35,534 bases of DNA from Chloroflexota bacterium (GTDB lineage: Bacteria > Chloroflexota > Chloroflexia > Chloroflexales > Roseiflexaceae): the NCBI GenBank assembly GCA_013388755.1, contig JACAEQ010000017.1, positions 1 to 35,534 of the forward strand, read 5' to 3'. Positions 3,197 to 12,374 of the stretch are shown here, one piece after another (positions within the stretch are counted from its first letter, which is position 1; every line of letters begins with the position of its first letter). A program made the position numbers and the translations under genes. The notes under the pieces were generated by a model. The model was given only the letters and a program-made list of their open reading frames with translations. It ran no database searches and was not told the origin of the DNA.

Positions 3197-3315
3197 CCGC
3201 GACCACTATTAACCCGTGGTTGCGACCTTCCCACCCGCAATCGTGGCATTTGTTCTATGCTTGAGCTATGGCATTACCGCCACGTCGTCGTCATTCATCC
3301 GCGCGGAGCGATACT

Positions 3316-4686
3316 ATGCAGCATCACCTTTCTACCCGCCGCCTCCGGCTCACCGATTTTTTGCTCGCTGGTCTGGCCATATTCACGCTCAGCGGCTGCG
3401 CTGGTGTCACGCTGCGACCACTCGCGGCAGCGCCGCCGCCGACCGCCATGCCGCAACTTGCGGGCGAGCCACTCGCCGCACCACCGACACCGGAACGCGT
3501 CACTGCGCCAGCTAGCGCCGTCGTGGCGACGCCGCCCGCCGCAACCGATACGCCAGAGCCGGCGCCGACACTGCCAGCCGTTGCGGCGACTGGAAGCGTC
3601 GTTCATGGCGGCAATCTGCGCGTTGTACCTTCCGGCGCCATTGTCGGTCAGCTCTGCCCTGGCGATACCATCGGGTTTCTGACGCGCGAGGGCGAGTGGT
3701 TCCACATCCGGCTGGAACAAACGGTCGCGGATTGCGTCCCCGATCGCGCACCGGCCGGAACCGCGGGCTGGGCGCACCAGACGTTGCTCTCCGCACCGGC
3801 CGTCACCATTGCCGAAGCGCCCGCCCAGCCGATCAGCGATGAGTCCGGTGCCACGATTGCGCCGCCGGCCGACGCCGCGCGCGCACAGGTCACCAATGTC
3901 GTCGATGGCGATACCATTGATGTCCTGATCGACGGGCGCGAAGTACGCATCCGCCTGATCGGCATCGACACGCCGGAAACCGTCCATCCCACCGACCCGG
4001 TGGAATGCTTTGGCCGTGAAGCATCGACCTTTGCCCGTGAACTCTTGACCAACCAGCGCGTCCTGCTAGAAGCGGATCCCAGCCAGGGAGAACAGGATCG
4101 CTATGGCCGCCTCTTGCGGTATGTCTGGTTAAGCGATGGCCGCCTGGTCAATCAGGAGCTCATCGCCCAGGGATACGCCTTTGAGTATACCTATAACACG
4201 CCGTACGCGTACCAGACGCAATTCAAGGAGGCGCAACGCGCGGCGCGTGAAGCTCAGCTTGGTCTCTGGTCACCCACAGCATGCAATGGTGAACAGAAAC
4301 CAGCAGAACCGACGCCCGCCGTTGCGCCGCCGGCAGCACCGGCCCCAACACCGGTTCCCGTCACCCCGGCGGCGACGGTGTGGTTCAGCAGTTGTCGCTC
4401 CAACCCGGGCGGCGCGCCCAACGCCCCCGTCACGATTGCCGGCGTGGATAAACGCGCTGAAGCGGTCGTTTTGAAGAATGTCAGCAGCGAAGCCATCAAT
4501 CTCGATGGATGGATCATGTGCAGTATCAAGGGCGGACAGATTCATAGCGGGATTGGCGGGGTGCTCCAACCTGGCGAACAGCGGCGCTTCCAACATGTCG
4601 GCAGCAACATCTGGAACAATAGCGAACCGGATCCTGGCGCGCTCTATGATGCGGAGGGTCGCCTGGTCGCCTACTGGCCGGATTGA
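3316..4686 (+). CDS. Lipoprotein thermonuclease with SH3-like and lamin-tail domains
   Basis: A 456-aa exported nuclease. ATG 3316 is preceded by CGGAG and opens a signal peptide ending in the lipobox LSGC (FTLSGCAG), so the mature protein should be lipid-anchored outside the cell. A Pro/Ala-rich linker follows, then an SH3-like domain (about 85-145: LRVVPSG, VGQLCPGDTIGFL, GEWFHI, GWAHQ). The SNase domain (about 180-320) has VVDGDTIDV, Arg213 and Glu221 in RLIGIDTPE, and Arg265 in DRYGR, matching the three catalytic residues of staphylococcal nuclease. The C-terminus (about 355-455) looks like a lamin-tail domain (VVLKNVSSEAINLDGW, LQPGE). It likely degrades extracellular nucleic acid. The frame is open from 3268, but that start would bury the signal peptide. 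Confidence 0.88.
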   Translation: MQHHLSTRRLRLTDFLLAGLAIFTLSGCAGVTLRPLAAAPPPTAMPQLAGEPLAAPPTPERVTAPASAVVATPPAATDTPEPAPTLPAVAATGSVVHGGNLRVVPSGAIVGQLCPGDTIGFLTREGEWFHIRLEQTVADCVPDRAPAGTAGWAHQTLLSAPAVTIAEAPAQPISDESGATIAPPADAARAQVTNVVDGDTIDVLIDGREVRIRLIGIDTPETVHPTDPVECFGREASTFARELLTNQRVLLEADPSQGEQDRYGRLLRYVWLSDGRLVNQELIAQGYAFEYTYNTPYAYQTQFKEAQRAAREAQLGLWSPTACNGEQKPAEPTPAVAPPAAPAPTPVPVTPAATVWFSSCRSNPGGAPNAPVTIAGVDKRAEAVVLKNVSSEAINLDGWIMCSIKGGQIHSGIGGVLQPGEQRRFQHVGSNIWNNSEPDPGALYDAEGRLVAYWPD

Positions 4687-5349
4687 CGCAGGGTCGCGCC
4701 GGTTTTGTGGTGAGACGAATGCATATCCGAGACGTTGTTCAACGTGAGTATCACAACTTGTTAAGCACACACCATCATGTCTATACCCTCACATGCGCCC
4801 ATAATAAGGTATAATCACCAGCAATTCGCCTAGTCACTGTCGCACCGGAGCGATAATGCGTGACAACCTGCTTAACATCAACCAGCATTCTCGCGGTTCG
4901 CCGAAAACCAACCCTACTGCCGATCGACCTGCTCGCTATAGGATATCCTGATCGACACAAACATTCAGTCGCCTCATAATGCCTGCTCAGCGATAGCAAG
5001 GGAAAACGATGAAGGCGCAGAGGCAGAGATAAAGACAAGACAATTGCTACACTACCATTTGGGACACCGATTGAACCGATTGAACCAGCTGGAGAAACAC
5101 TAGGTGTTGACACCATTGAGCATGTTCTTACTGCAGGATTGAAGCCTGCCGATAGCTATGCAGTATCACACCAAGAAGTACACGATGGGTTTCGGAAGTT
5201 GAACTAGAGACCTTTGCCGCGTTACCCCAAACGTGGTCGCAACTAAACCGTGAAACCTGGCATTGATTACTTCTCTGAGAATATGCAACCGGCGCAATTA
5301 ACTGGTGGATTGATCAACAAACCACCCCGAGCAAAAAGGGACACGCGGA
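4687..5349. other. Gene-poor region with orphan promoter/RBS and an ORF remnant
   Basis: No intact gene is seen. At 4810-4815 a TATAAT is followed by CACCGGAGCGA (4843-4853) and an ATG at 4856, but that frame stops after 31 codons. The same -10 and RBS cassette precedes the CHAT relic at 7788, so this may be the severed 5' end of a related gene. From 5013 to the TAG at 5205 a frame is open without a start codon; its peptide (beginning about TIATLPFGTPIEP) is not one I recognise. The base composition is more AT-rich than the neighbours and this continues into the next gene. Confidence 0.5.
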
Positions 5350-6513
5350 ATGCCATCCATTGAACCATCCTCACACTTTACCCAATTGCGCGACTGGTCC
5401 GAACGGAAACATCAGGTTTTGAAAGATTATCTCCCGGCTTTTTGCCGAGTATTGTCACGTCGGGCAGAAACGATATGGTACGTCGATGGCTATGCTGGTG
5501 CAGGCATCTACCGCGATCCAAATAACCCCGACGCTCCCGGACATCCTGGTTCGCCGGTGTTGGCAGCGAAGATCATTCAGACTCTGCCATATCCAATTAG
5601 GTGCATCAATGTAGAAGGAGATCAGGAGAATTTCGGGAGTTTGCAGCGTGAGACTGCTCATTTCGCGAACGTTGAAAGTATCCATGGCGATTTCAACGCT
5701 GTGATTGACCAGATCCTCTCGAGAGTAGCCGAGATGCCGGCATTCTTCTTTCTTGACCCCTTCGGAACGAAAGATTTGCCTATGGAAGGTCTCGTCGATA
5801 AGATCGCGCTCCGTACAAAACCGACTGATATCCTCCTTCGGTATGCGACGGAGACGGTGCGCCGCGTAGCTGCTGCATATGAAAAGGATGCCAAACGGGG
5901 AAGTGCCCATGGGCGCAATCTGGACAAGTGGTTTCGTGGTCAAGACTGGCGTACAATAATCGAACAGCATACCGGTGATGAGCGAGACGAGGCACTGATT
6001 CGGTATTACCTGAAGCAGCTTGTTACAATCTCCAATAGCCGGATGAGATTTGCCTGCGCATATCCCATCCGATCGACCGAAGGATTGACAAAATATCACC
6101 TGGTGTTTGCAACTGGCGATCGGCTCGGGATGAAAGTGATGAGTGACATACTCTACAAGGCTGAAGCCAAGTATGTAGAAGAGCACGCAGCATATATTGA
6201 GCAGAAGGAGGCAGGGAAGTTAAAAGGGCAAACGATGTTTGATTTCGCCAATCCACACACCGAGCCTTCAGCGGCTGATCAGTTGACGGCGAAAATTGCC
6301 AAAATAGAACAATCAATCCTCGATCAGCGGCAACACAGGACTCATTGGGAATTTGATGACTTGCGCTGTACCCTGATTGAGCATGGATGGTTTGCTCGGT
6401 TCAGCGAAAAAGAGTTTCGCGACGCTTGTAAGGGGCTGTATGCTAAAGGGCAGATTGAGCGTGTATCAGCCGGAAAAGGCTGGAATAAGGGTACGGTCTT
6501 CATCCTTCGATAG
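5350..6513 (+). CDS. tcmP: Three-Cys-motif partner protein TcmP
   Basis: A 387-aa protein matching the TcmP family, defined by its regular place next to a three-cysteine protein of the Gp37/Gp68 (DUF5131) family, as here. Landmarks are LRDWSERKHQVLKDYL near the start, the strand-loop IWYVDGYAGAGIYRD (about 42-56), the GSP loop, and FFFLDPFGTKDLPM (about 132-145). YVDGYAGAG and LDPFG resemble the nucleotide-binding loops of a Rossmann-like methyltransferase fold. The C-terminal about 75 residues look like a winged helix (HWEFDDLRCTLIEHGWF). The biochemical role of the family is not established to my knowledge. An A/G-rich AAAAAGGGA stretch lies 8-9 bases before ATG 5350. Its codon use is less GC-rich than nearby genes, suggesting horizontal transfer. 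Confidence 0.85.
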   Translation: MPSIEPSSHFTQLRDWSERKHQVLKDYLPAFCRVLSRRAETIWYVDGYAGAGIYRDPNNPDAPGHPGSPVLAAKIIQTLPYPIRCINVEGDQENFGSLQRETAHFANVESIHGDFNAVIDQILSRVAEMPAFFFLDPFGTKDLPMEGLVDKIALRTKPTDILLRYATETVRRVAAAYEKDAKRGSAHGRNLDKWFRGQDWRTIIEQHTGDERDEALIRYYLKQLVTISNSRMRFACAYPIRSTEGLTKYHLVFATGDRLGMKVMSDILYKAEAKYVEEHAAYIEQKEAGKLKGQTMFDFANPHTEPSAADQLTAKIAKIEQSILDQRQHRTHWEFDDLRCTLIEHGWFARFSEKEFRDACKGLYAKGQIERVSAGKGWNKGTVFILR

Positions 6514-6524
6514 TAGCTGTATCA

Positions 6525-6553
6525 TTGACTTATAGGCACGCGTGTTCTACAAT
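6525..6553 (+). promoter_or_regulatory. Sigma-70-type promoter of the DUF5131 gene
   Basis: TTGACT (6525-6530), a 17-base spacer, then TACAAT (6548-6553). Only one base of each box departs from consensus. It lies in the 118-base gap after tcmP, so the second gene can be transcribed on its own. Confidence 0.75.
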
Positions 6554-6555
6554 TG

Positions 6556-6587
6556 AAGTGCATGATCGTTCCGCGAATCGTGCACTT
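6556..6587 (+). promoter_or_regulatory. Inverted repeat at the DUF5131 transcription start
   Basis: AAGTGCATGAT (6556-6566) pairs with ATCGTGCACTT (6577-6587), an 11-bp stem with one G-U pair and a 10-base loop. It begins two bases after the -10 box, so it covers the expected transcription start. No T-run follows, which argues for an operator or a 5'-leader hairpin over a terminator. Confidence 0.65.
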
Positions 6588-6631
6588 TCTGCGCTGTTAC
6601 GTTGGCGCTCTCAGATTGGAGGTCTACTCAT

Positions 6632-7441
6632 ATGGGCCAGAAGTCAGCAATTGAGTGGACTGACCATACCTTCAATCCGTGGTGGGGCTGTACCAAAGTC
6701 TCACCTGGGTGTGTTCACTGCTATGCGGAAACCTTCTCCAACCGCTACCAATTTGATGTGTTTGGACCTCGTAAACCCCGCCGCACCTTTGGCGAGAGTT
6801 ATTGGCACGAACCCCTGAAATGGAATCGACTAGCGGCACAGACTGGTACGCGCGCCCGCGTGTTCTGTGCCTCAATGGCGGATGTCTTTGAAGACAACGC
6901 CAGCGTCGAGCCCGAGAGACAGAAGCTATGGCGCTTGATCGACGAAACTCCGATGCTTGACTGGCTGCTCCTCACGAAGCGACCACAGAATATGCGTCGC
7001 CTTGCTCCATGGGAGAATGATTGGCCGATCAATGTCTGGGCGATGACGAGTGTCGAGGACCAGGCGCACGCACAAAGCCGTATTCCTCTCCTTCTTGAGG
7101 TTCCTGCGCTCGTCCATGGCCTATCCGTTGAGCCGCTGCTTGAACCAGTTGACCTCGCGCCATGGCTGGATGACCTTCAGTGGGTTATTGTCGGCGGCGA
7201 GAGTGGACCAGGCGCCCGGCCTATGCAAGTGGAATGGGTTGCATTTCTTCGCGATCAGTGCATCGAAGCCGGCATCCCATTCTTCTTCAAGCAGTGGGGC
7301 GAATGGTCATATGCCACAGACTCGAGTATGCCTACGAGGCGTGTCGGGAAAAAGGCAGCTGGACGCGACCTTGAGGGCCGAACGTGGGATGAGATACCTG
7401 ATGTTGAGAGCTTGTGGCTTGCGCGAACAGCGCATTTCTAG
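6632..7441 (+). CDS. DUF5131 / phage Gp37-Gp68 family three-Cys protein
   Basis: A 269-aa member of the Gp37/Gp68 family. The N-terminal IEWTDHTFNPWWGC leads into cysteines spaced C-x6-C-x2-C (WGCTKVSPGCVHCYAE), a cluster reminiscent of radical-SAM iron-sulfur ligands. Further family marks are VFCASMADVFEDN, LLLTKRPQNM, VWAMTSVEDQ, LSVEPLLEPV, VIVGGESGPGARPM and FFFKQWGEW. The family is found in phages and in mobile bacterial islands beside TcmP; what the pair does is not settled. ATG 6632 follows GGAGG (6618-6622) by 9 bases. A TTG at 6602 lies before this RBS and is rejected. The gene has its own promoter just upstream. Confidence 0.88.
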   Translation: MGQKSAIEWTDHTFNPWWGCTKVSPGCVHCYAETFSNRYQFDVFGPRKPRRTFGESYWHEPLKWNRLAAQTGTRARVFCASMADVFEDNASVEPERQKLWRLIDETPMLDWLLLTKRPQNMRRLAPWENDWPINVWAMTSVEDQAHAQSRIPLLLEVPALVHGLSVEPLLEPVDLAPWLDDLQWVIVGGESGPGARPMQVEWVAFLRDQCIEAGIPFFFKQWGEWSYATDSSMPTRRVGKKAAGRDLEGRTWDEIPDVESLWLARTAHF

Positions 7442-7787
7442 GTTGACTCGCCCCTGTTATTACCAGCCCTTAGCTCTCATACCTTCGCCCTCTACCTGTT
7501 CCCTTCGTGCCGTTTCCCACCCGTCGACGCATGCAGGACGATCGGGCAACTTGCGATCGCTGCGCCGTGCTGCTATCCTCAGGGTGCAAAGCGACGACCC
7601 CATTGGTGTGGGGAAGACTGATCACCCGCTAGGAAACGCCCCGGCTCTCCCGAGTCGGGCGATTGATTCTGGGTGCTGCCGTTCCGGGTGGTCGTAATCG
7701 TTGGCCGCGCTACAGATACTCACCACCTGCGCCCACATTCGGGTATAATCGTCCCATTCGTCCCGCTTGCACCGGAGCGACTGTGCG
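7442..7787. other. Intergenic region with hairpin and promoter-like element
   Basis: No gene is seen. A hairpin CCCGGCTC (7640-7647) / GAGTCGGG (7652-7659) with a 4-base loop and one G-U pair could end transcription of the upstream gene, but no U-tract follows. TATAAT at 7744-7749 and CACCGGAGCGA at 7770-7780 form the start signals of the CHAT relic. No good -35 box is visible. Confidence 0.5.
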
Positions 7788-8668
7788 ATGCCCGCGCCGA
7801 CCTACGCTGATATGCGATCGACCTCGATCCGCTCGACGACGACGCCTTTCTGCTGCGCCTACGCGCGCATGATGGTGCGGAAGCACGCGTCACATTTATG
7901 CTGCCTAGCGTCACCGATCTCTTGGTGCGTTTCGACCAGGATGACCTCGATGCCGCCGGCGCGGCCGATCTTGGGCGCGCGCTCTTCGACGCACTGTTCT
8001 CTGCCACGGCGCGCGACCTGCTCCAGCGCGGTCTGAGTTACGCCGAACAGCGCGGCCAGCGCCCGCGCCTGCTGCTCTCGCTGCCGCGCGAGGCCCACGC
8101 CGCCGCCGCACTACCCTGGGAATTGCTCCACGATGCCGGCGGGACGCCGCTGCTGTGTCGTGAGCTGGCGATCGTGCGCCGCATCCCGCTCGATACGACG
8201 ACCTCGCCGCCGCTGGAAGCGCCGGTGCTGCGGGTGCTGCTCGCCGCCGCGCCAACTGACCCACCCGCGCCCGTTGCCCGCGAACTGGCGGAAATCCGCG
8301 ACGCGCTGGCTACCGTGGCTGGCCGGGTCGCGGTCGACGTCGAGGAAACGATCACGCCCGCCATCCTCCAGCGCCGGCTGCGCGAAGAGTTCCACGTCTG
8401 GCACCACGTCGGCCACGGTCGACCGGACGGCAGCCTGGCGCTGCTTGACGAAGTCGGCGATCCGCTGCCGGTCAATCCAGCGCAGCTCGGCGCATTCGGC
8501 AGCGTCGCATTCCTGCACAATGGCGCGTCTGTGGTCACCGTCGGCGCCGACGGCGCCATTCGTTGCTGGCACATCGACCATCGGGCGGCGATGGAAGCGC
8601 TGCGGAGCCGGTTACTGCGCGACCTGACGGCGGAAGAACGGACGCAGTATGGACTTGGCGGCGGATAA
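7788..8668 (+). pseudogene. CHAT-WD40 gene collapsed by frameshift and internal deletion
   Basis: The natural start is ATG 7788 behind CCGGAG (7772-7777), giving MPAPTYAD. One base is then missing near 7812, and the real frame resumes as AIDLDPLDDDAFLLRL. A later ATG (7898) gives 256 aa. The first part is a CHAT domain N-terminal half: LLLSLPREAHAAAALPWELLHD, LRVLLAAAPTD, and the catalytic-His box WHHVGHGRPDG. Straight after LPVNPAQLGAF the frame jumps to GSVAFLHNGASVVTVGADG...IRCWHID, the last blade of a WD40 propeller, and ends RLLRDLTAEERTQYGLGGG. The CHAT cysteine half and all of a central NTPase/WD40 region are absent. It reads as the two ends of a long CHAT-NACHT-WD40 gene joined by an in-frame deletion. 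The product is unlikely to be a protease. Confidence 0.8.
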
Positions 8669-8686
8669 TCGGCCTCACCGGCTCGC

Positions 8687-11600
8687 TCACGGTTCACCGC
8701 TGATTCCATACTGCGCTCGTTCATCATCGGTGAAATCGCGTAACAGGCGACGACGCAGATGCGCTTGCGTTTCACGCCAGTCGAGATGCCAGATTCGCGC
8801 GGTGGCATCGGCGCTACAGGTGAGGACGTACTTGCCATCCGGCGCGAACGACGCGCCATACACCGCGCTGCTATGCCAGGTGAACCGCCGGAGTTCCGCG
8901 CCGGTCCCCAGATGCCATAACCGCGCCGTGCGATCCTGCCCCGCCGTCAGGCCCAGGGTTCCATCGGCGGAGATACGTGCACTGTTGATGTACCCATGAT
9001 GCCCGGCCGCCCGCCAGATCTCCCGGCCGCCGGCGAGATCCCAGCAGCGCACGCTGCCATCAGCGCTCCCGGTCAGCATGTGCCGCAGATTCGGGCTGAC
9101 CGCGGCATAGACCATTGGGAAGCGCGGGTCCACCAGGCGCTGCACTTCCGCGCCGGTCGTTACATCCCAGAGCCGCACGCTGCCGTCGTCGCTGCCGGTG
9201 ACGGCGTAGCGCCCATCGGGCGAAAACGCCGCGCCGACGACCAGGTCGGTATGGCCGGTAAGGACGTGTAACAGCTCGCCAGTGACTGCATCCCACAGCC
9301 GCGCGGTGCGATCATGGCCGCTCGTGAGGATGAGACGGCCATCGGGTGAAACCGCGATGCCCCAGATACGGTTCTGATGGCCGATCAGCAGCAACTCGAC
9401 AGCGCCGGTCTCGATATCAACCACGCGCCCGATGCCGTCATCGCCTGCTATCGCGACACGTCGCTCACTTGGGTGAGTGGCCAGCCCGCCATGGATCGTT
9501 TTCGCCGGCACCACACGCCAGCAGTGGCGCTCGCGACCGCTGCCAACATCCCACACCCGTAGGGCAAGGTCATCACCAGTGGTAACGACGGTTTTGCCAT
9601 CGTTCATGAACACGGCAGTCATCAAGCCGCTGGGCGAACCACGGAACACCGGCGGCGAGGGAGTCTCGTCAAGCGACCATAATGTCGCCACCCCATCAGT
9701 TCCGCCGGTAAGCACAAAACGGCCATCAGGCGCGCAGGCATGGCTCCAGATCAGATTATTATGCCCGGCGAAGCGCCGCAGTTCAGCGCCGGTCTTCATG
9801 TCCCACAGTCGCGTCGTCGAATCAAGACTGCTCGTAAGCATCCGCGCGCCGTCAGGCGTTACCGAGAACTTTTCAATATAGTCGGTATGGCCGCGATATT
9901 CACATGCGATCCTGCCGGTCTCACTATCCCAGCCGTGCACGATGAATGCATCATGCGGCCCGACCAGGATCATCTGTTCATCAGGAGTAACGGCAACATT
10001 GCCAGAGAACGGAATGTCGCGCAACAACGTAACCGGCGCAGGTTCGCCGAATGTCCAGCGCAACACAGCTTTGCCGGTGCAATAGATACAACTACGACCG
10101 TCCGGCGCCAGGCCGATTCTTCGCGGCACGCTACGGCGAGTATTAAGCGCCTCAAGCAGGACGCCGCCCACCGGATCCCACAGCCGCAGGTATGGTTCCA
10201 TGCCCCAGGTCAACAACCGCCCATCGGCGGTGAATTCTACTCCGCTCAGATTAGCGCCATGCGGCAAGAGATGAAGCTGTGCGCCACTGGAAGTATCCCA
10301 GATCCGCACCGTCTGGTCATCAGCGCCGCTTGCCAGCAGGCTGCCGTCCGGCGAGAAGGCCAGGGCGTGCAGATTGCTGGTATGGCCTACGAATTGGCGC
10401 ACGTCAACGCCCGTGGCGACATCCCATTGGCGAATCACCGGATCCTGACCGCCGGTCACCACCGTACATCCATCCGGCGCGTACGCGACGCAATAGATTC
10501 TGCCGGTATGACTGGTGAAATGACGCACCGGCAGATCCAGGAGCGCCGCGCCGCAGAGCGCCTCATCGCCTTGCGGCGTATGGCGGAGCGCAAGCGAGTG
10601 CAGCGCCAGCAGGGCAATCAGTTCGGCGCTGCCGCCGCGCTGGATGAGCCGGTTGGCCTCCGCGGCAAGCCGCTGCGCTTCGGAACGCGCCAGGCTCTCA
10701 CGGAGCGCCTCCTGGCGCGCCTGTTCCTGTTCAAGACGTTGCTCATGCTCGTTCATGCTCGCCGTGAGAAAGGCGCGCTCCTGCTGATTGAGTTCAATCC
10801 CGGTCAGCGCTTCGAATTGCGCCAGGCGCGCGCCGCCGGCGAGGAAGCTCGGGTCACAGCCGGCGGCATACCACTCAGCGGCGGCATGCGCCAGCCCGCG
10901 GTGTACGCGCAGATCGGCGCGCTGATCGTTCACCCAGTCGCTCAGTCGTTGCCATCCCTCAATCAGCGCCTCATGGGCAAGTTCAACCGTCGCGCCGCCC
11001 GAATCGCGATCGAGCGTCAGCAAGCGATGGTTGGCGAACCGTTCGGCGATCGCATGCGCGCCGCCTGGCAGTTCGGTTACATGCGCCCGGCGACGCGCAA
11101 CTTCGCCCGACTCCAGCACCGAAATCAGGCGCAGGAAGAGTTGGCGTGTCGCGTCACGCGCAGCGTCATCCAGCGACAGATAGAGCGCATCGGCGCGATG
11201 CGTGAGCGCGCCGGCAATCCCGCCGATTGCCTGGTAGTTCGCCAGGTTCAGGCCAGCGGCCGCGCGCTGCTCAAACAGTTCGGTCAGCGTGTACTGGAGC
11301 AATGGCAAAGCCCCGGGCCGCCGTTCCACATCGGCAACCAGCGCGGCGAGCAGCTCAGGTTCAGCGGTTACGCCCAGGCGTTCGAGCGGCCCCGTAATCA
11401 CATCCACGATTTCATCCGGCCCCAACGGCAGAACAACTTCGGTACACTGGCGCAGCGCCGCGCCAAAGGCGCGATACTGCAACGGACGGTCATAGAAGTC
11501 GGCGCGCAGCGTGACCACCACAAACGAGCCGCCAGGCGCTTGCGCAAGCGTCAGCAGACGCGCTAAAAATGCGGCGCGCTCCGCTTCCTGCTGGCAGAGC

Positions 11601-12262
11601 GTCCAAGCCTCTTCAAACTGATCGATGACCACCAGCCTGGGAATGTCAGCCCCTTGTTGCGGGAGCGCATCTTCAAGCAGCGCAACCGGATGGGTTCCCG
11701 GCGTCAACAGCGTCACCGGCCAGTGCTGCGAGCCAGGGAGCGCGCCACGCCGAATGGCGGGCAGCAGCCCCGCGCAAACGACCGAAGATTTCCCGCTGCC
11801 GGATGGGCCAACCACCGCCAGCATGCGTAAGGTGCGCTGAGTGGAACCGCTGGTGTCAACAATTGAGCTGGAGGGCGATCCTACCTGCCGGGCAATCTCA
11901 ACATGATCCGGCTGATCGATATGCGCGAGCCGAGTAAGCAGCCGCGCAATCAACGCCGCGCGGCCAAAGAAATCAGCAGCGTCGGCTTCGGTAAAGGCGC
12001 GTAATCCTTTGAACGGATTGCGCGGGTTGGCGACGCCGCGCGGCCGGCGCAGATGACGTATCAGGTTCTGGCGCTCTTCCGGCGTCAATTCAAGGGCGCG
12101 CAACAGATGGTCAGCCAGTTCACGCGATGGGCGGAGCGACCCATGTTCAATTCGTTTGAGTGTAATCACCGCGCAGCCGGCGCGGCGCGCCAGTTCGGCC
12201 TGAGTCAGATCAAGCGCGCGCCGGCGCTCCTTGATAATGCGCGCAAGCATATCATCCGGCAC
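8687..12262 (-). CDS. HTH-nSTAND1-WD40 signalling ATPase
   Basis: A 1191-aa STAND protein. An XRE-type HTH (about 5-70: IIKERRRALDLTQAELARRAG) leads to the nSTAND1 entry NPFKGLRAFTEADAADFFGR. The P-loop GPSGSGKS is at about 152-159 and Walker B is in LVVIDQFEEAW. After a helical, partly coiled-coil region (EHEQRLEQEQARQEALRE) come about 14 WD40 units (each near GHT...SPDG...RLWD), enough for two seven-bladed propellers. STAND proteins act as ligand-triggered oligomerising switches. The start is GTG 12262 because GGGGAGG (12268-12274) lies 5 bases upstream; an upstream ATG at 12346 lies inside the promoter. A Ser/Thr-rich stretch of about 30 residues separates the FGR motif from the P-loop and looks like an insertion. 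It converges on the CHAT relic with an 18-base gap. Confidence 0.9.
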   Translation of the reverse strand: MPDDMLARIIKERRRALDLTQAELARRAGCAVITLKRIEHGSLRPSRELADHLLRALELTPEERQNLIRHLRRPRGVANPRNPFKGLRAFTEADAADFFGRAALIARLLTRLAHIDQPDHVEIARQVGSPSSSIVDTSGSTQRTLRMLAVVGPSGSGKSSVVCAGLLPAIRRGALPGSQHWPVTLLTPGTHPVALLEDALPQQGADIPRLVVIDQFEEAWTLCQQEAERAAFLARLLTLAQAPGGSFVVVTLRADFYDRPLQYRAFGAALRQCTEVVLPLGPDEIVDVITGPLERLGVTAEPELLAALVADVERRPGALPLLQYTLTELFEQRAAAGLNLANYQAIGGIAGALTHRADALYLSLDDAARDATRQLFLRLISVLESGEVARRRAHVTELPGGAHAIAERFANHRLLTLDRDSGGATVELAHEALIEGWQRLSDWVNDQRADLRVHRGLAHAAAEWYAAGCDPSFLAGGARLAQFEALTGIELNQQERAFLTASMNEHEQRLEQEQARQEALRESLARSEAQRLAAEANRLIQRGGSAELIALLALHSLALRHTPQGDEALCGAALLDLPVRHFTSHTGRIYCVAYAPDGCTVVTGGQDPVIRQWDVATGVDVRQFVGHTSNLHALAFSPDGSLLASGADDQTVRIWDTSSGAQLHLLPHGANLSGVEFTADGRLLTWGMEPYLRLWDPVGGVLLEALNTRRSVPRRIGLAPDGRSCIYCTGKAVLRWTFGEPAPVTLLRDIPFSGNVAVTPDEQMILVGPHDAFIVHGWDSETGRIACEYRGHTDYIEKFSVTPDGARMLTSSLDSTTRLWDMKTGAELRRFAGHNNLIWSHACAPDGRFVLTGGTDGVATLWSLDETPSPPVFRGSPSGLMTAVFMNDGKTVVTTGDDLALRVWDVGSGRERHCWRVVPAKTIHGGLATHPSERRVAIAGDDGIGRVVDIETGAVELLLIGHQNRIWGIAVSPDGRLILTSGHDRTARLWDAVTGELLHVLTGHTDLVVGAAFSPDGRYAVTGSDDGSVRLWDVTTGAEVQRLVDPRFPMVYAAVSPNLRHMLTGSADGSVRCWDLAGGREIWRAAGHHGYINSARISADGTLGLTAGQDRTARLWHLGTGAELRRFTWHSSAVYGASFAPDGKYVLTCSADATARIWHLDWRETQAHLRRRLLRDFTDDERAQYGISGEP

Positions 12263-12345
12263 AGCAACCTCCCCGGCGGAACGAAGCCTGATCGGATCAA
12301 TATATTGACTGGCTTGTGGAGCAGCGAATGTGAATTGTATACGCA

Positions 12346-12374
12346 ATTGTATCCGTTGGCGTCTTGTTTATCAA
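12346..12374 (-). promoter_or_regulatory. Sigma-70-type promoter of the nSTAND-WD40 gene
   Basis: On the minus strand TTGATA (12374-12369), 17 bases, then TACAAT (12351-12346). A second ATACAATT lies 12 bases downstream as a direct repeat. The predicted start gives a leader of about 75 bases before the GTG start at 12262. Confidence 0.75.

Follow-up and report, generated by a model that had tools for sequence, protein, structure and literature searches.

Two adjacent genes of families with no assigned function, TcmP and DUF5131, occupy positions 5350-7441 of the window, by which we mean the whole 35,534-nucleotide stretch of Chloroflexota DNA analysed here, and raise the question of what their products might do together. 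No function or activity of either family has been reported in the searchable literature, and the first-pass annotation, which described them as a conserved two-gene unit in an AT-richer island, went no further than considering a role in conflict or mobile-element biology plausible. Both genes are on the forward strand and intact. TcmP (5350-6513) encodes 387 aa and scores 162.1 bits against TIGR04474, whose curated cut-off is 53, while DUF5131, also named Gp37/Gp68 (6632-7441; 269 aa), scores 280.9 bits against PF07505 over residues 5-256 (gathering threshold 28.9). The DUF5131 gene, with its C-x6-C-x2-C motif, lies downstream, 118 bp from the end of TcmP; ATG 6632 is a more likely start than TTG 6602, a ribosome-binding site GGAGG being directly readable on the same strand at 6618-6622, 9 nt upstream of the ATG, and residue numbers are counted from this start.

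The composition of the island agrees with the lower GC content claimed earlier. The pair has 52.3% GC as compared with 62.3% in 352 kb sampled from the same genome, which served as reference in place of the whole genome, and none of the 627 segments of 2.1 kb in that sample was as low. An AT-rich leader (4687-5349, no strand assigned) with 49% GC and devoid of sizeable ORFs precedes TcmP. Each family is present in a single copy in the source genome. The closest pair found, that of locus L224, shows 64% and 67% identity; relative to it, pN is 0.22 and 0.21 with pS saturated, which indicates that both genes are maintained by purifying selection. Of the neighbours previously seen in the flanks, a CHAT gene at 247-1398 and an nSTAND1-WD40 gene at 8687-12346 were confirmed. 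Between the pair and the latter, an ORF at 7898-8668, read by eye, runs from a CHAT-like N-terminal part into what would be the final WD40-like repeat of a STAND-type protein; it is consistent with a damaged gene, as had been proposed, and looks like the product of an internal deletion in a CHAT/WD40 gene. An empty-site comparison of the flanks (3268-5300 and 7460-9460) with 40 relatives demonstrated no insertion, the only matches being a copy of the STAND gene at 84% and unlinked paralogues at about 67%. Since parts of the flanking sequence recur elsewhere in the genome, the nSTAND and CHAT neighbours are weak evidence at this locus. Further upstream, two overlapping ORFs (1434-1934 and 1931-2446) encode a small antitoxin-like protein and a PIN-like DUF3368 protein (weak Pfam match), a probable toxin-antitoxin pair.

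What the first-pass annotation overlooked is the enzymatic character of both proteins: DUF5131 is, by its model, a radical-SAM protein, and TcmP is RlmJ-like. The DUF5131 model (pLDDT 94.7) is an atypical-motif radical-SAM fold in the form of a partial TIM barrel. Its top Foldseek match was spore photoproduct lyase (VIA Z 13.4 over 203 residues, 3.3 A), followed by viperins (Z ~11), RlmN (10.9) and lipoyl synthase (~10), all of which are radical-SAM enzymes, as were all the best-scoring solved structures from Z 13.4 down to ~8.4. The three cysteines noted earlier (residues 20, 27 and 30; 6689-6721, forward strand) proved to be kept in 57/57 Chloroflexota homologues of at least 220 aa and invariant in an alignment of 72 sequences (72/72). 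Their conservation and their location in a radical-SAM fold make an iron-sulfur cluster likely, with the cysteines as the predicted 4Fe-4S ligands. The canonical C-x3-C-x2-C is absent from DUF5131, C-x6-C-x2-C standing in its place; radical-SAM families with variant cysteine spacings exist, and a weak HHalign alignment (probability 26%) laid the DUF5131 motif on the C-x3-C-x2-C of the spore photoproduct lyase-like (SPL-like) proteins discussed below, with a three-residue insertion.

Pfam searches with DUF5131 of this locus gave no match to Radical_SAM (PF04055) or SPL (PF20903), and sequence searches of the PDB yielded nothing useful. The NCBIfam radical-SAM family TIGR04471, by its name (radical SAM mobile pair protein A) likewise part of a mobile two-gene arrangement, shows detectable similarity (E 6.6e-10); its score of 38.8 bits stays below the cut-off (355), so DUF5131 is not a member. 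Compared with spore photoproduct lyase, DUF5131 is also shorter and differs in the spacing of its cysteines. A further cysteine, C79, reaches at least 90% conservation in the DUF5131 branch to which this locus belongs and is replaced by Val in most of the other branch; by comparison with spore photoproduct lyase it is a candidate extra catalytic (hydrogen-donor) residue, a proposal drawn from sequence rather than superposition. In Micromonospora costi, an intein sits directly before the third motif cysteine, and inteins prefer active sites. This intein (L246:6894-8918) starts with CLDPATRV, ends with THN before CYAS and contains a LAG-FDTDG homing-endonuclease-like motif; a viral contig (L190) is near-identical to the M. 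costi locus.

The resemblance to viperins, the second structural group matched by DUF5131 and themselves radical-SAM antiviral enzymes, might suggest that DUF5131 turns a nucleotide into a chain terminator or a signal, and that TcmP modifies or delivers the product. A solo DUF5131, of which there are many (see below), could then work without a nucleic-acid-binding partner. We nevertheless consider this very improbable: the match to spore photoproduct lyase is better by about 2 Z units, nucleic acid is the more fitting substrate for a methyltransferase that may end in a winged helix, and DUF5131 is frequent in phages themselves. Viperins have the canonical CX3CX2C and act on NTPs; to our knowledge, they need no methyltransferase partner.

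For TcmP, the first-pass annotation had proposed a nucleotide- or SAM-binding fold on account of two loops, and the AlphaFold2 model (pLDDT 88, pTM 0.86) supports a class I SAM-type Rossmann methyltransferase fold that is RlmJ-like over approximately residues 15-260. RlmJ was the best PDB match (Foldseek E 8e-7; VIA Z 17.1 over 224 residues, 3.4 A) and also came first in a sequence-profile search of the PDB (E 0.013). The putative SAM-binding loop, motif I YVDGYAGAG (residues 44-52; 5479-5505, forward strand), aligns with DTHAGAG of RlmJ, and motif IV LDPFG (5752-5766, forward strand) with its DPPY, and the profile alignment places D136 on D164, a residue needed for methyl transfer by RlmJ (PMC3814359). 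D46, G50 and D136 are invariant among 29 sequences, together with K20 and Y27; K20, in the first helix, is positionally compatible with K18 of RlmJ, no more than that. The RlmJ Pfam family itself gave no match to TcmP at E 0.1, and a BFVD fold search returned mostly generic methyltransferases. Given that motif IV reads DPFG rather than DPPY and that its Pro is missing in 4/47 TcmPs, some members may not methylate; that TcmP methylates is likely but not certain. TcmP further differs from RlmJ in having an extra C-terminal domain and, nearly always, a radical-SAM-type neighbour. This helical, winged-helix-like extension, at about residues 308-387, had been read as a winged helix. The secondary structure of the model (helices 308-328, 335-347 and 353-365, then two strands) is compatible with this reading; no fold match was obtained for this part and the PDB sequence search with it yielded nothing useful.

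The likeness to RlmJ, which methylates A2030-N6 of 23S rRNA (PMC3814359), brings in the possibility that tRNA or rRNA is what the pair modifies, whether in housekeeping or in response to phage, for example by blocking translation or undoing tRNA damage. TcmP also resembles the tRNA methyltransferase Trm1 in fold, and RlmN is among the best structural matches of DUF5131. The distribution of the genes speaks against it, being patchy even within one phylum (TcmP in 81/400 and DUF5131 in 99/400 Chloroflexota genomes), as do carriage on mobile elements, defence-gene contexts and solo DUF5131 genes adjoining DNA methylases. We regard an RNA substrate of this kind as unlikely.

An indication of a joint function comes from linkage. 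In the 400 Chloroflexota genomes, 55 of the 78 TcmP matches above cut-off lie within 1.5 kb of a DUF5131 gene, and the two-gene unit described earlier is indeed conserved. Its gene order is not: over all adjacent matches, TcmP comes first in 24 and DUF5131 in 22, nine being convergent and one divergent. A linkage that survives such rearrangement points to shared function. The remaining 23 TcmPs, read individually, comprise 12 with an SPL-like neighbour, five at contig ends and six without such a neighbour; of these six, four are divergent and two are partial or broken. All 12 SPL-like neighbours carry C-x3-C-x2-C; one of the 12 TcmPs is the second of a tandem TcmP pair. Thus, 67 of the 73 testable TcmPs have a radical-SAM-type neighbour, as compared with 0/1290 matches to either partner family among ORFs of at least 150 aa in control loci on the same contigs and in a sample of the source genome. 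Several of the alternative partners are labelled SPL or Radical_SAM by Pfam. TcmP of Halopiger, an archaeon, comes after an annotated radical-SAM gene, with a second radical-SAM gene just beyond, and the sequence of the TcmP neighbour at locus L121 bridges the two families, matching Radical_SAM (1.8e-10) and DUF5131 (7e-5) as well as PDC-M41B/M30B, two models considered below. The conserved unit is accordingly a radical-SAM protein plus a methyltransferase, in which the radical-SAM partner is interchangeable. Divergent TcmP paralogues without a radical-SAM neighbour stand at a fixed position beside enolase and glyceraldehyde-3-phosphate dehydrogenase genes at three loci (L330, L332 and L336), where they are possibly domesticated.

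The replacement of DUF5131 by SPL-like proteins raises the question of repair. DUF5131 could reverse a DNA or RNA lesion in the manner of spore photoproduct lyase, its closest fold, with TcmP as an accessory for binding or methyl handling, and the pair would be a survival gene of mobile elements. The Pfam SPL matches of the alternative partners are in keeping with this, and a plasmid copy in Burkholderia glumae adjoins ImuA, a Y-family polymerase and an error-prone polymerase. However, it would be left unexplained why a methyltransferase accompanies a lyase, the annotated contexts are mostly restriction or defence genes, and the DUF5131 of this locus lacks the Pfam SPL match. Repair is, in our judgement, unlikely.

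Within the pair, the two proteins evolve differently. The median pairwise identity is 46% for DUF5131 and 21% for TcmP, and several loci have two TcmPs for one DUF5131. The conservation of the one, the variability of the other and the two-TcmP loci suggest that TcmP may be the recognition part. Mirror-tree analysis of co-evolution was uninformative (Mantel r 0.30 for 72 pairs and 0.00 for distant pairs), and co-evolution is not demonstrable in this way because TcmP identity saturates near 20%.

We tentatively favour, at somewhat short of even confidence, the reading that the products of the two genes, a radical-SAM enzyme and a methyltransferase, work as a module that modifies nucleic acid in phage-host conflict. 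In DUF5131, the three cysteines would bind a 4Fe-4S cluster for SAM cleavage; the enzymes nearest to this protein in fold have DNA bases (spore photoproduct lyase), nucleotides (viperin) and RNA (RlmN) as their substrates. TcmP would be an RlmJ-type (adenine-N6) class I SAM methyltransferase with an added C-terminal domain. The two enzymes would share one target base, most likely in DNA, with recognition and probably methyl transfer supplied by TcmP and the radical step by DUF5131. The nucleic acid so marked or altered might be protected from restriction or cooperate with it, or the invader might be impaired. As RlmJ is an RNA enzyme, the data do not separate DNA from RNA, and DNA is what we infer. 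It is tempting to go further and to imagine an immunity module that installs a so far undescribed hypermodified base, such as an exocyclic amine that is methylated and then remodelled in a radical reaction. Its radical-SAM partners would be interchangeable, and specificity would reside in one or two rapidly evolving TcmP subunits. This more elaborate version is rather unlikely; if true, it would represent a nucleic-acid modification chemistry undescribed in phage defence.

The association with mobile elements and defence genes suggested for the pair was found in many places. Restriction or defence genes surround it in diverse hosts: an N6-methylase, an AAA ATPase and McrC (McrBC) in Nocardioides; DUF3375, DUF4194 and an ATPase, a Wadjet-like set, in Rhodococcus; a methylase, a helicase and a GIY-YIG nuclease in Acidovorax; DUF262 genes in Paraburkholderia; and type ISP, IIG and III restriction genes in Chloroflexota. 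The excess of restriction genes over matched control loci in Chloroflexota, from Pfam and PADLOC tallies, is suggestive only, with Eco57I-type neighbours in 4/123 matched loci and defence-like genes in the controls as well. In S. meliloti, an ORF of 845 aa taken as hna has DUF5131 and two TcmPs as neighbours, and an expression table lists TcmP SMa2243 together with hna SMa2245; the resistance in this species is conferred by Hna alone (PMC12445080).

DUF5131 was found in 153 phage and 376 plasmid records, while TcmP is present in only 4/80 phage loci (IMG/VR). The DUF5131 tree divides into a branch of mostly host-type genes, as a rule accompanied by TcmP, and a phage-rich branch, as a rule solo; the association with TcmP changed at least nine times in the tree, and the copy of this locus falls within the phage-rich branch, in a small group from Chloroflexota. 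Since many phages have DUF5131 by itself, defence is not the exclusive role of the pair. The conflict or mobile role foreseen by the first-pass annotation stands to this extent, a purely defensive one not being established.

Such carriage could also mean that the pair is selfish cargo, serving the mobile element by masking its DNA from host restriction. The phage and plasmid records agree with this, as does the island of foreign composition in which the present copy resides. Solo DUF5131 genes adjoin DNA methylases at some loci and, on plasmid pRA01 of Roseicitreum antarcticum (L345:7001-8456), one overlaps a Lar restriction-alleviation gene in a prophage-like region. Many copies, however, are chromosomal and adjoin host defence systems, and in Gordonia phages the pair lies in the lysogeny module, between integrase and repressor, the usual place of prophage defence genes. 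We consider such a selfish or anti-restriction role quite improbable, and the modification module described above remains our preferred reading.

The association with defence is not new, since PADLOC already lists both genes as the candidate systems PDC-M30 and PDC-M41. DUF5131 matches the M30B and M41B models (3.4e-62 and 1.8e-63), and the TcmP of this locus matches M30A and M41A as a distant relative (42 and 38 bits); these are model scores alone, taken apart from PADLOC's own coverage and E-value rules. PDC-M30 was present in 32/100 P. aeruginosa strains, 68.8% of which were phage-resistant (PMC10855318), and PDCs are described as being without experimental validation (PMC10855318, PMC12988326). 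What is new here is that both proteins are assigned to kinds of enzyme and that the radical-SAM partner is interchangeable. This gives a concrete, testable chemistry to two families without known function and to PHROG 2045, a gene widespread in phages. If the pair does modify nucleic acid in conflict, PDC-M30 and PDC-M41 would be explained and radical-SAM nucleic-acid chemistry would join the phage-host toolbox alongside viperin.

Several individual loci deserve mention. On the B. glumae plasmid p79s2p (L344:357-11490), the arrangement is TcmP-DUF5131-TcmP, with the ImuA/Y-polymerase/error-prone polymerase cassette on one side and, on the other, a further radical-SAM gene followed by dTMP kinase. 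In Sorangium cellulosum So ce26 (L206:7881-11381), a 1166-aa ORF contains DUF5131, a low-complexity linker and a ParB-like domain, and is possibly a fusion. At L107:10433-11056, finally, a solo DUF5131 lies downstream of IS21-type istA/istB-like genes, and the protein encoded after it, of 207 aa, has an EVK motif that is possibly PD-(D/E)XK-like.
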